Shown here one piece after another: positions 2,282 through 29,116 of a stretch of DNA of 64,000 nucleotides. This stretch comes from Halieaceae bacterium (GTDB taxonomy: Bacteria; Pseudomonadota; Gammaproteobacteria; Pseudomonadales; Halieaceae): the NCBI GenBank assembly GCA_016744355.1, contig JADGEN010000009.1, positions 1 to 64,000 on the forward strand. The letters are read 5' to 3'. How positions within the stretch are numbered: the first letter of the stretch is position 1; each line of letters starts with the position of its first letter. A program made the translations under genes and the position numbers. The notes below the pieces were generated by a model that had not been told where the DNA came from, made no database searches, and was given only the letters and a program-made list of their open reading frames with translations.

Positions 2282-4777
<2,496 letters not shown>

Positions 4778-24549: not shown

Positions 24550-24978
24550 ATGGCTATGACAATTCACTGTGACATCGTTAGCGCGGAGGAAGAAATTTTC
24601 TCCGGGCTGGTTGAGATGTTGGTTGCTAATGGGGAGCTGGGAGAACTGGGTGTTGGTTACGGCCACGCACCATTGTTGACCTCGCTTGTTCCCGGTGCCG
24701 TTAGGGTAATCACCCAGGGAGGCGAAGAAGAAATTTTTTATGTCTCCGGTGGTTTTCTGGAAGTACAACCCGGTGTTGTCTCAATATTGGCAGATACTGC
24801 GCTGCGGGCACAGGACATGGATGAAGCCGCCGCCGAAGAGGCACGCAAAGAAGCAGAGGACGCACTGACTAATCAGTCTGGCGAATTCGACTATGGGCGG
24901 GCCTCCGCCAGGTTGGCAGAAGCCGCTGCCCAGCTTGCCACACTCAGAAAATTGAAAAACCGGGCGGGTCGAGGTTAA
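24550..24978 (+). CDS. atpC: ATP synthase F1 subunit epsilon
   Basis: A 142-residue subunit with the N-terminal beta-sandwich ([13 protein letters not shown]..., GYGHAPLLT) and the C-terminal helical hairpin that can inhibit ATP hydrolysis. It is the last gene of the operon, followed by a strong terminator. Confidence 0.97.
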
Positions 24979-24996: not shown

Positions 24997-25023
24997 AAAG
25001 CCCCGAAATATCGGGGCTTTTTT
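24997..25023 (+). terminator. Rho-independent terminator of the atp operon
   Basis: A perfect ten-base stem AAAGCCCCGA / TCGGGGCTTT (24997-25006 and 25011-25020) with loop AATA and a T run to 25023. The A-rich opposite side means it may also act for the convergent TrmB-like gene. Confidence 0.9.
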
Positions 25024-25040
25024 GTATGTGGAACAATGTC

Positions 25041-25790
25041 TTATAACAGCTCCCATAAGGTATCGAACAGTATCTGCTGTGTGGAGGCGATTGCCTGTGA
25101 ATCGATAATCACAACCACGGGATGTATATTGTTAGTCAGTGTAATCATTGCCACTTTAGGTGGATAGATGGCGATATACGACGCATCGGTGGATGCTCCG
25201 GCGGGAAGCCATTTACGCTCAGCCAATTCAGCTTCATCCCCTCCCTCTCCCACAGCCAGTACTCGCACTCTAATTCCTCGGCTTACTCGCTGTTTGGTAA
25301 AGTTTGGAAACGGTCTATATAGGTGCTCCCTAAGTGTTTTGGTGGAAATAACGGCATATCCCTTTTCGGGGGAATCAGCCGTGCTGTCAAGGATGTCGCG
25401 TAGCGCCATTTCGACGCCATCATCTCCTTCGTAGAATCTTACGTTCCCCGGACTGAACTCTGACTGTGTTTGTTTTAGCGCGGGTATTACATCTTTGCGC
25501 AACTGTTCCATTGCCAGTGAAAGCGCCTGTTGTTTACTTTCTCCCAGGCTTAAAAGTCGCTCCGGATCTTCAGCCTGGAAAACCCGTCGTCTACCCTTTG
25601 GGAAGTAGCTGACTACGCCTTTGGTGGCCAATTGTTTCAGGGTTTCATAGGTACTGCCCCGGTTAACTCCCGACTCTGCTGCTACCTCCCGTATAGAGGC
25701 CGGCCCCAGACGCAAAAGAGCCTGATAAATGCTAATCTGGCGATCACTCAGACCTAATTGATGCAGACATTCTTTTTTGTTTATTGTCAT
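25041..25790 (-). CDS. TrmB-family transcriptional regulator
   Basis: A 249-residue protein with an N-terminal winged helix (about 10-75: LGLSDRQISIYQALLRLGPASIREVAAESGVNRGSTYETLKQL) of the TrmB/SpoIIID-like type and a C-terminal ligand-sensing domain resembling the phospholipase D-like fold seen in TrmB proteins. It is divergent from glmU with 120 bases between them; the gap holds a palindrome that carries the -35 hexamers of both genes. In Pseudomonas the unrelated DeoR-type GlmR occupies this place and controls glmS, so control of amino-sugar synthesis is a reasonable inference here. The ligand is unknown. Confidence 0.85.
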   Translation of the reverse strand: MTINKKECLHQLGLSDRQISIYQALLRLGPASIREVAAESGVNRGSTYETLKQLATKGVVSYFPKGRRRVFQAEDPERLLSLGESKQQALSLAMEQLRKDVIPALKQTQSEFSPGNVRFYEGDDGVEMALRDILDSTADSPEKGYAVISTKTLREHLYRPFPNFTKQRVSRGIRVRVLAVGEGGDEAELAERKWLPAGASTDASYIAIYPPKVAMITLTNNIHPVVVIIDSQAIASTQQILFDTLWELL

Positions 25791-25857
25791 TTGTTTTGTG
25801 ACACAGGTAGTTGAATTTATGGAGTGCCTGTTTAATATGCAGCTTCAAGTAGAAAAT

Positions 25858-25876
25858 TGTCAAAAATAATTTGACA
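25858..25876. promoter_or_regulatory. Palindromic operator shared by the glmU and TrmB-like promoters
   Basis: TGTCAAA-5-TTTGACA is a perfect 7-5-7 inverted repeat. Its right arm contains TTGACA (25871-25876), a consensus -35 for glmU with TAAATT 15 bases on (25892-25897). Its left arm read on the minus strand is also TTGACA (25863-25858), with CATATT 18 bases on (25839-25834) toward the regulator gene. A dimer bound here would cover both -35 elements. Sequence facts are direct; binding by the adjacent regulator is inferred. Confidence 0.6.
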
Positions 25877-25910
25877 TAAAAACTAATAAAGTAAATTTGG
25901 GGTTCGAATT

Positions 25911-27284
25911 TTGTCAGAAAATCTTGAAGTAATTATTCTCGCTGCCGGGCAGGGTAGTCGCATGAAATCCAGCTTACCTAAGGTTTTACACCCTGTTGCG
26001 GGGCGCCCGATGTTGGCCCATGTTGTGTCTGCAGCGCAGTCGCTTGGTGCTAAGGCGATTCATGTCGTGGTTGGCCACGGAGCTGAACAAGTCAAGGAGG
26101 CGATGGGTGCTACAGACATCAACTGGGTATTACAGGAAGAGCAGTTGGGAACAGGGCATGCTGTTTTACAGGCCATGCCCTCGGTCTGCGATGGCAGCAC
26201 TGTTCTAGTCTTATATGGGGATGTGCCTCTTATTACAACCCGAACGCTCACTAGTCTGGCGTTAAAAGCAAAAGCCGCCCCGGCTCTTCTGACATCAGCC
26301 GTTAAGGAGCCATTCGGTCTTGGCAGAATCATTCGTGATGAGCGTGGAAAGCTGCTTGAAGTGGTAGAGGAAAAGGACGCAACGAATGAGCAGCGCTGCA
26401 TTTGTGAAGTCAACACGGGCGTTCTAGCCGCACCGGCGGTGGATCTCAAGACATACCTACCCCGCGTGGGAAACAGCAACAAACAAGGTGAATACTATTT
26501 GCCCGATATTTTGGGGCTAGCCGTTAAAGAGGGTAAAAATATAGAATCTTTCGCGGCAATGTCTGAATTGGAGGTGCAGGGCGTCAACGATCGTCTGCAG
26601 CTCAATCAGGTGGAGCGTGAATTTCAGCGACGCCAGGCAGAAGAGCTGATGCGGCAAGGCGTATCTGTCGCTGATATCAATCGTTTGGATATACGCGGTA
26701 GTTTGCGTTGCGGTAAAGATGTCACCTTTGATGTCAACGTGGTGATAGAAGGTAGTGTAGAGCTGGGCAATGGGGTGAGTGTGGGTCCAAATTGCGTGTT
26801 AATTGACACTCGGGTGGAAGATGGAGCGCAGATACATGCTTTTAGCCATCTACAAGAGAGCATTATAGGGAAAAACTGCTCAGTAGGACCCTATGCCCGC
26901 TTGCGCCCCGGTAGTTTAATGGACGAAGGGGCGAAAGTAGGCAACTTTGTAGAAATGAAGAAAGCGAATGTGGGTAAGGGCAGCAAAATAAATCACCTCA
27001 GCTACATTGGTGATTGTGAAATGGGTGCCGGAGTGAATGTGGGGGCGGGCACTATTGTTTGCAATTACGACGGTGTTAATAAGTCGAAGACCGTACTTGG
27101 AGATGGTGTTTTTGTGGGCTCTAACAGTACTCTGGTTGCCCCGCTTACCATTGAGCAGGGTGCATTTGTTGGGGCGGGTTCCGCCGTCACAAGAACAGTA
27201 GAAGAAAATGAGCTGGCTGTTAGTCGGGCGCGGCAAAAAAATATTCAGGGTTGGCAGCGTCCGACCAAGAAAACCGGAGAATAG
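25911..27284 (+). CDS. glmU: Bifunctional UDP-N-acetylglucosamine pyrophosphorylase / glucosamine-1-phosphate acetyltransferase
   Basis: A 457-residue cytoplasmic enzyme making UDP-GlcNAc for peptidoglycan and LPS. The N-terminal uridylyltransferase has [25 protein letters not shown], and the C-terminal left-handed beta helix has the hexapeptide repeats and [19 protein letters not shown]. The start is TTG 25911, which may limit its translation. It is followed after two bases by glmS. Confidence 0.98.
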
Positions 27285-27286
27285 TC

Positions 27287-29116
27287 ATGTGTGGAATTGT
27301 AGCAGCAACGGCACGTCGCGAAGTGTCCGAAATACTACTGGAGGGCCTGCGCCGTCTGGAGTACAGAGGTTACGATTCGGCGGGCATGGCATTATTGGAC
27401 GGCAACGGCCTCCTGCAATTACATAAGCGGGAGGGAAAAGTAGCAGAGCTGGAAAGCGCTCAACACGATAAGCCGCTCTCCGGTAACATTGGAATTGCTC
27501 ATACAAGGTGGGCAACGCATGGAAAACCCTCTGCGGCTAACTCCCACCCGCATCACTCCAGTAATCGCGTGGCCGTTGTGCACAATGGCATTATTGAAAA
27601 CCATGAGGCGCTGCGCGAGGAGCTTTGTGGCCAGGGTTATGAGTTTCTCTCTGAAACTGACAGTGAAGTTGTCGTTCATCTCTTGCACGGATTTTTAGTT
27701 CAAGGAGAGTCGCTTCTCGATGCCATGAGAAAAACAGTCGCTAGACTCGAGGGCGCGTATGCTTTGGCGGCTCTTGATTGCGAGCACCCCAGAGAGATTG
27801 TGGCTGCCCGAGAAGGCAGTCCACTGGTTATAGGCATAGGCATAGGTGAGAATTTCCTCGCTTCAGATCAGCTCGCTCTGCGCCAGGTTACAGACCGTTT
27901 TATTTTTCTTGAAGAAGGCGACCTGGTTAGTATGTCGCCAAGCAGCTTCGAAATTTACGATCGCGACAACCTGGCGGTTGAACGTGAACGCACCCACATC
28001 TCAGATGCCATAGAGGTTGCCGATAAAGGCAGCTATAACCATTTTATGATGAAGGAAATATTTGAGCAGCCCAGGGCGCTGGCAGATACGTTTAAAACCC
28101 GCCCTGGCAAGCCTATAGCAGATGAGCGCTTTGGCCCTAAAGCAGCGGAGATATTCGACCAGGTCACCGCAGTACAGATTGTGGCCTGTGGCACAAGCTA
28201 TCACTCTGGCATGGTAGCTCGTTATTGGCTGGAAGAGTTGGCTGGTATCCCCTGTCAGGTGGAAGTGGCTTCAGAGTTTCGTTATCGCACCCGGGTCCAG
28301 CACCCCGGCACCTTACTAGTTACGGTTTCCCAGTCGGGCGAAACGGCAGATACCCTGGCGGCACTGCGCAATGCGGCAGAGAATGAGTTTGTTGGCAGCC
28401 TTGTGATTGCCAATGTCGACAACAGCTCGCTGGTGAGAGAGAGTGATCTTGTATTCTTGACACGCGCAGGTGCAGAAATCGGCGTGGCATCGACAAAAGC
28501 ATTTACCACACAGCTTGTAGCATTCCTTATGCTGACAGTGGCTTTGGGACGACGTGGGACTATGACGCCCGAGAAGCAGCAGGAACTTTCTGTCGCCCTA
28601 CACAAGCTTCCAGATTATGTAAGCCAAACGTTGCAACTCGACCCGGTTATTGAAGCGCTTTCCGAGTCATTTATACCCAAGCACCACTCGCTGTTTCTTG
28701 GGCGGGGAATTCTCTACCCTATTGCGATGGAGGGGGCTCTCAAACTCAAGGAAATTTCTTATATACATGCTGAAGCCTACCCTGCCGGCGAATTAAAACA
28801 TGGGCCGCTCGCCCTGGTAGATGCCGATATGCCTGTCGTGGCGGTTGCACCCAATGACGAACTGTTAGAGAAGCTAAAATCCAATTTGGAAGAAGTGCGC
28901 TCCCGCGGTGGCGAGCTCTATGTGTTCGCCGACCGGGAAGCAGGGTTTACAGATTCCTCTCGCGTGCATGTCATGTCTATGCCGAGCTGCCCTGAAGTGT
29001 TAATGCCTATAGTCTACACGGTAGCCCTGCAATTGTTGTCTTATCATGTGGCAGTGCAAAAAGGCACGGATGTTGATAAGCCGCGCAATCTTGCGAAGTC
29101 GGTTACCGTAGAGTGA
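27287..29116 (+). CDS. glmS: Glutamine-fructose-6-phosphate aminotransferase
   Basis: A 609-residue enzyme (E. coli 609) that makes glucosamine-6-phosphate, the first step of amino-sugar synthesis. The start must be ATG 27287 because the processed N-terminal cysteine of MCGIVAA is the glutaminase nucleophile. Two SIS isomerase domains follow and the C-terminus ends [12 protein letters not shown] lies ahead of the ATG. No GlmS ribozyme is expected and none is seen. Confidence 0.98.

Follow-up and report, generated by a model that had tools for sequence, protein, structure and literature searches.

Archaeal TrmB proteins activate transcription from sites upstream of a promoter and repress it from sites downstream (PMC4158304). 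Beside glmU and glmS, the genes of amino-sugar synthesis, Pseudomonas has a DeoR-type regulator, GlmR. A GlmR regulon in Shewanella is listed in one source, which does not name the regulator's family in that place (PMC3223726). A search of open-access literature for GlmR by gene name gave mostly the Bacillus-type protein, and nothing that joins a DeoR-type GlmR, glmS and Pseudomonas. Among the matches listed from an open-access library, we found no description of TrmB-type control of glmU or glmS; the preliminary description of the present locus named none in gammaproteobacteria either.

The locus studied here lies in a stretch of 64,000 nucleotides from a Halieaceae bacterium, which we call the window. 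A gene for a TrmB-type regulator of 249 amino acids (25041..25790, - strand) is divergent from glmU (25911..27284, + strand, TTG start; TIGR01173, 606.5 bits) and from glmS (27287..29116, + strand; TIGR01135, 822.7 bits), which starts 2 bp past the glmU stop. By eye, the aligned glmU start of many relatives is an ATG two codons after the apparent TTG start at 25911. On its other side the regulator gene is convergent with an open reading frame (24550..24978, + strand) that we take to be atpC, the last gene of the atp operon. A terminator-like hairpin stands at 24997-25020 (one found, versus 1.3 in shuffles).

We assembled 95 loci, of which 30 came from genus and family searches, 64 from named genomes (Halieaceae, Endozoicomonadaceae, Oleispira, Bermanella, Thalassolituus, Balneatrix, Pokkaliibacter, Saccharospirillum and others) and one was L001; one of the source searches had matches in 36 of 140 genomes, including one match that was a mere fragment of 32 residues. 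The regulator is divergent from glmU in 91 of the 95; the linkage remarked on from the window is deeply conserved. In the remaining loci (L078, L080, L086 and L087) glmU is absent from the sequenced stretch examined. At L087 (Saccharospirillum), near position 4001, the regulator start overlaps the 3' end of a frame that is presumably flavin-reductase-like, and the two may be co-transcribed.

The regulator had been said to stand where Pseudomonas has GlmR, but this is inexact, because the DeoR gene, in the loci where we found it, sits between glmU and glmS, and the TrmB-type gene between atpC and glmU. As a control set, we used 26 hand-picked regulator-negative genomes (17 from the same family, 9 from others). 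Both glmU and glmS are visible in 25 of these 26 loci, the exception being L191, which shows no glmS. Only L199 and L201 have room for an intervening gene, and there a DeoR gene, presumably GlmR, lies between glmU and glmS. Among the regulator loci, 68 (counting duplicates) contain both genes, and there the aligned ends of glmU and glmS are 3-298 bp apart, which is too short for an intervening gene. Separately, two genomes of family f6 (G144 and G446) have a frame between glmU and glmS (L169:739-1395 and L170:832-1485) that we take to be phosphatase-like, of HAD type.

The assignment of the regulator to TrmB is based on sequence and on a predicted structure. PF01978 (TrmB) matches the window protein with 54.5 bits, which exceeds the gathering cut-off of 25.6, and it matches 30 of 30 aligned orthologs at E <= 10 (best, 2.8e-15). 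None of the DeoR families (HTH_DeoR, DeoRC) is among the window protein's family matches. An AlphaFold2 model (pLDDT 87.4, pTM 0.51) has a winged HTH at residues 9-77, a linker helix and a PLD-like C-terminal domain at about 115-249, i.e., it combines the winged HTH and PLD-like C-terminal domain of TrmB proteins. The C-terminal region (model residues 116-249) resembles the TrmB sugar-binding domain in 2f5t (Z 11.4, rmsd 3.0 over 122 residues), while PLD-family proteins likewise score 10-12 against it. The best whole-length fold match is TrmBL2 (5bpd_B; Z 13.7), at an rmsd of 15.0 over 231 aligned residues, which suggests that the modelled domains are differently arranged. A sequence match to 3qph (E 1.7e-4) spans residues 8-101 only. 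The effector-binding domain PF11495, which marks the full-length sugar-sensing branch of the family, is absent among the 16 families that match the window protein at E <= 10. The 30 orthologs match 44 families, and PF11495 is not one of the 25 commonest, in searches where HMMER drops most matches above E 0.1. Five basic residues in the C-terminal half (R154, R168, R192, K193 and K212) are invariant in 30 aligned sequences, and this half would therefore appear suited to a phosphorylated ligand.

Attention had been drawn to the locus by the palindrome TGTCAAA-AATAA-TTTGACA, which we confirm at 25858-25876 (site B). In the form TGTCAAA-N5-TTTGACA it has a single copy in the 3.94-Mb assembly (93.85% complete). 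The palindrome is real, but it is only one of two matched sites, and the other had been overlooked. The gap between the regulator and glmU contains two predicted operators of the common design TGTCA-N9-TGACA, namely site B and, overlapping the regulator's ATG (25788-25790), site A (25785-25803). With at most one mismatch this pattern occurs twice in the window, versus 1.49 times expected; both occurrences are exact and both are in this gap. Site B on its own, without comparison, is unremarkable, and its significance comes from conservation across related gaps. The whole assembly has three exact occurrences (A, B and C133:35089), and the pattern read backward, as a control, has two. The third lies within a reading frame, presumably HypD-like, and its spacer is G or C at 5 of 9 bases. 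With only three exact sites, one of them intragenic, and two for the control, we rejected the idea that the regulon reaches beyond this locus in the genome of the window.

Conservation was assessed in the intergenic gaps. The 91 divergent loci yield 63 unique gaps, and an exact site is found in 62 of them; 10 loci from families f38 and f39, minus 2 duplicates, bring the number of unique gaps to 71. Site A, at no more than one mismatch and followed by TTG, is present in 71/71, while any such site occurs in 61 of 7100 single-base-shuffled gaps. The pair of A and B (spacers of 9 or 10) occurs in 45 of the 71 gaps, which are related to one another and are thus not independent counts, and in none of the 7100 shuffles; we rejected a chance palindrome on these counts. 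The distance between the centres of A and B is most often 73 bp (32 gaps), and otherwise 72 (1), 72.5 (2), 74 (6), 75 (1) or 75.5 bp (3). Site B is missing or degenerate in the other 26 gaps, which are 6 from Halieaceae genus g23, where the right arm has decayed, 7 of Oleispira type or from others of f39, 7 of Endozoicomonas type and 6 from f38. At L065, L068 and L095 the regulator and glmU are separated by about 2 kb, and site A remains 283-289 nt from glmU.

Two further observations concern these long gaps and leaders. A 388-aa reading frame (L065 2111-3277) lies within the 2.3 kb that separate the regulator from the glmU operator at L065, and the corresponding gaps at L068 and L095 are about as long. 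The Parendozoicomonas-type loci L071, L077 and L082 have long glmU leaders in which, by eye, an inverted repeat, TTTTCCATTG...CAATGGAAA, is followed by a T run; this element of the 5' leader looks attenuator- or terminator-like.

Promoters were inferred in the gap on both strands. Between A and B, the + strand promoter with the top mean score has the form TTGnnn-N16-TAnnnT, both across 25 gaps from Halieaceae and across 7 from elsewhere. In the window it consists of the -35 element TTGAAT (25811-25816), a spacer of 16 and the -10 element TAATAT (25833-25838), i.e., 25811..25838 on the + strand, with glmU transcription predicted to start at about 25845. The best -10 element begins 29 bases past site A in 39 of the 71 gaps, 30 in 5 and 27 in 9, with the others scattered. 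Given this conserved place, A would be centred about 51 bp before the glmU transcription start (-51), and B would lie at about +22. A is thus upstream and B downstream of the conserved glmU promoter, an arrangement that may be compared with the upstream/downstream rule for TrmB. The inferred regulator promoter (25834..25863, - strand) uses the left arm of B as its -35 element (TTGACA, 25863-25858), followed by a spacer of 18 and the -10 element CATATT (25839-25834). It ranks first among - strand promoters, both in the window and across the 25 Halieaceae gaps (mean 8.9), with a mean of 4.1 in the 7 gaps elsewhere. In the window its -10 element and that of glmU overlap on opposite strands, and the use of one promoter would therefore preclude use of the other. 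Inspection by eye showed no regulator promoter in the window at about -51 from B, the position that would mirror A.

The preliminary description proposed instead that one palindrome, B, supplies both -35 elements; on that reading the regulator would act there only. TTGACA is indeed present on both strands, each with the best consensus score for its strand in the window and each with a -10-like element downstream, namely TAAATT on the + strand (25892-25897, 15 bp away) and CATATT on the - strand (18 bp away). The left arm stands, since it belongs to the regulator promoter conserved in Halieaceae; the right arm does not, because it is not conserved for glmU. The + strand promoter that the right arm would form lies beyond B and was scored separately. 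Among the 40 gaps listed, the right arm reads TTGACA in 10, with no consistent -10 element (TAAATT occurs in the window and at L091), and in four relatives (L015, L056, L057 and L073) it lies only 7-11 nt before the aligned glmU start, which is too near. For the window alone the right-arm promoter scores 10.3, versus 7.4 for the promoter upstream. We rejected it as the conserved glmU promoter, and it is possible as a local second promoter in the window. The phylogenetic footprinting that had been suggested for the gap thus retains the regulator-strand promoter in Halieaceae but places the conserved glmU promoter upstream, after A. Because A is universal in these gaps, B accompanies it in only part of them, and glmU genes unlinked from the regulator retain an A-type site, we consider action at a single palindrome to be very unlikely.

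The unlinked glmU genes belong to f6 (Saccharospirillaceae-like) and f27, where operator and regulator can be compared in trans. This comparison used ten genomes (6/11 from f6 and 4/17 from f27 having a strong ortholog). In eight of the ten, glmU is preceded by a single exact site, 57-84 nt from its start, and G186 and G247 have only a site with two mismatches. These trans loci have the upstream, A-type site only, and a B-type site was seen only where the regulator is divergent from its target. In the control set, an exact site was found at 0/26 glmU loci (about 1.5 kb on each side). The 400 nt that precede glmU contain a site with at most one mismatch in 0/26 and a site with two mismatches in 4/26.

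The results in trans bear on the possibility that the palindromes serve another widespread regulator and that the TrmB gene is a bystander. Half-sites of similar kind occur for other regulators, and the pairing of TrmB with this operator comes from comparison of sequences. However, none of the 26 regulator-negative genomes has the site before glmU at the threshold of one mismatch, and the operator pair accompanies the regulator to a GlmS-like gene in family f35; we judge a bystander to be most improbable. This pair was found by searching 390 genomes of the order for the exact A+B pattern, which matched 12, with 0 for the backward control. Ten of the 12 have the pair at glmU and two f35 genomes (G209 and G288) at a GlmS-like gene, divergent from the regulator, with the two sites 71 bp apart. 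The GlmS-like gene of G288 encodes SIS and glutamine amidotransferase domains. In a third f35 genome, G173, two exact sites 92 bp apart lie between the regulator and a second glmS with 32-35% identity to glmS, and the main glmU has no site although the genome carries the regulator. At the f35 loci L108 (1595-3088), L109 and L158, a GlmS-like gene adjoins the regulator and two predicted operators.

Sites in f6 suggest additional targets. The three exact sites in G296 are upstream of glmU, pckA and fbp, and one in G412 is upstream of gap. With at most one mismatch, the pckA site is present in 7 of 10 f6 genomes, those with the closest pckA, and absent in the other 3 and in all 13 other regulator-positive genomes tested, that of the window included (16/23 in total). 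The gap site, at the same threshold, is present in 4 of 6 f6 genomes and absent in 2 and in the genome of the window. Shuffles would give one site in such a pckA or gap stretch in 0 to 3 of 100 cases. As for fbp, the gene itself was seen in one genome, G296, where it has the site. Gluconeogenic targets outside f6 were rejected, given these absences. It is important to emphasize that whole-genome counts by themselves do not reveal a wider regulon, whereas orthologous positions do: ten f6 and f27 genomes have 51 exact sites versus 23 for the backward control, and G296 has 3 versus 4. Of 35 other exact sites examined in these genomes, 28 are within mechanical reading frames and 7 between them; flanking genes looked up include a zinc dehydrogenase (G446) and a phosphotransferase (G412).

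The trans promoters of glmU, pckA, gap and fbp share a geometry. The best -10 element starts 30-33 bases past the site in 21 of 22, fbp being the exception, and TAnnnT is found 28-33 bases past the site in 18 of 22 versus 14% of shuffles. When spacers of 15 to 19 are allowed, none of the 11 pckA and gap promoters has a -35 element that stands out from shuffles (fractions between 0.05 and 0.63, none <0.05). A fixed distance from site to -10 element, together with no -35 element above shuffles, is the layout of activator-dependent promoters.

The comparison thus provides the operators, their spacing, their co-occurrence with the regulator and the promoter geometry, and from these we infer how the regulator would bind its sites, whether as a dimer, which effector it would respond to and whether it would activate or repress. 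We consider it likely, from sequence comparison, that in many related marine bacteria a TrmB-family protein seated at A activates glmUS, and in f6 also gluconeogenesis, with B giving autorepression. The regulator would bind TGTCA-N9-TGACA palindromes, probably as a dimer. At the core operator A, roughly 51 bp upstream of the start, it would most likely activate a weak glmU promoter and hence glmU-glmS, and would do so when sugar phosphates are scarce. Fructose-6-P, GlcN-6-P, UDP-GlcNAc or another phosphorylated sugar would probably be the effector. B would serve as an accessory operator over the regulator's -35 element, causing negative autoregulation, and at about +22 it would perhaps cap glmU. 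Built-in autoregulation, which had been proposed earlier, is likely, since the left arm of B is the -35 element of the Halieaceae regulator promoter and A covers the regulator's start codon. The spacing of 73 bp corresponds to seven helical turns and would place two dimers on one face of the DNA, where they could cooperate or, judging by the spacing, form a loop. In f6, gluconeogenesis and amino-sugar synthesis would rise together; in Halieaceae, glmUS alone would respond.

The same spacing lends itself to the opposite sign, in which the regulator represses glmUS, dimers at A and B loop or block the promoter, and an amino-sugar signal releases it. This would fit the inferred promoter between A and B, the separation of 72-74 bp in 41 of 45 pairs and the position of B downstream of the inferred transcription start; repression from a site at -51 is also conceivable, through exclusion of the alpha subunit of RNA polymerase. 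However, the trans loci have the upstream site only, and the gap and pckA promoters lack a -35 element above shuffles, which is common in activator-dependent promoters. We therefore regard repression of glmUS as unlikely, and activation from A as the better reading. A further proposal combines activation with history. A Saccharospirillaceae-type TrmB master activator would couple pckA, gap and fbp to glmUS, and in Halieaceae it would have narrowed to a local switch, in which overlapping divergent promoters share one -10 region that admits one RNA polymerase at a time and two operators seven turns apart choose the gene. We advance this combination tentatively, as a possibility rather than an expectation.

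The distribution of the regulator gives some indication of its age. A strong ortholog is present in 68 of 390 genomes of the order, and 8 more match weakly. A search of 369 genomes from the wider class matched 8, only that of the window strongly; the second-best match has E 7.4e-11. In the regulator tree the sequences cluster mostly by family, with two changes each for f38 and f8 and support of 79/70 for f6. For this reason, old presence with losses suits the data better than fresh recruitment here, and the suggestion that a different regulator family had been recruited independently is unsupported.

If these readings are correct, a family known mainly from Archaea gains, in a large bacterial order, a motif together with a probable regulon and a sign of control that can be tested. 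They would also connect carbon supply directly, at the level of transcription, with the synthesis of peptidoglycan and LPS precursors. Since A can be disrupted without B, and B without A, the locus also offers ready mutants.

The system resembles known ones only in part. GlmR of the Pseudomonas and Shewanella type is likewise encoded beside glmU-glmS, but it has a DeoR HTH and sensor domains, and its gene is positioned between the two. GlmR (YvcK) of Bacillus also ties growth on gluconeogenic carbon to GlmS, but it is a UDP-GlcNAc-binding protein proposed to stimulate GlmS; to our knowledge, it is not a DNA-binding regulator. Closer are TrmB, TrmBL1 and Tgr of Thermococcales and TrmB of Halobacterium, which share the PF01978 winged HTH and an inverted-repeat operator. 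They also control sugar metabolism and gluconeogenesis, with activation or repression described as depending on position (PMC4158304, PMC10817205). However, the archaeal TrmB operator is TATCAC-N5-GTGATA, while that of the window system is TGTCA-N9-TGACA, and the latter differs further in its sigma-70-type promoters, its regulator of 249 aa with no PF11495 match and its target, amino-sugar synthesis. Finally, the Pyrococcus chromatin protein TrmBL2 is the best whole-length fold match and is of similar length, but it covers DNA (PMC4877046), whereas the window regulator has few specific sites, three of them exact in the genome.
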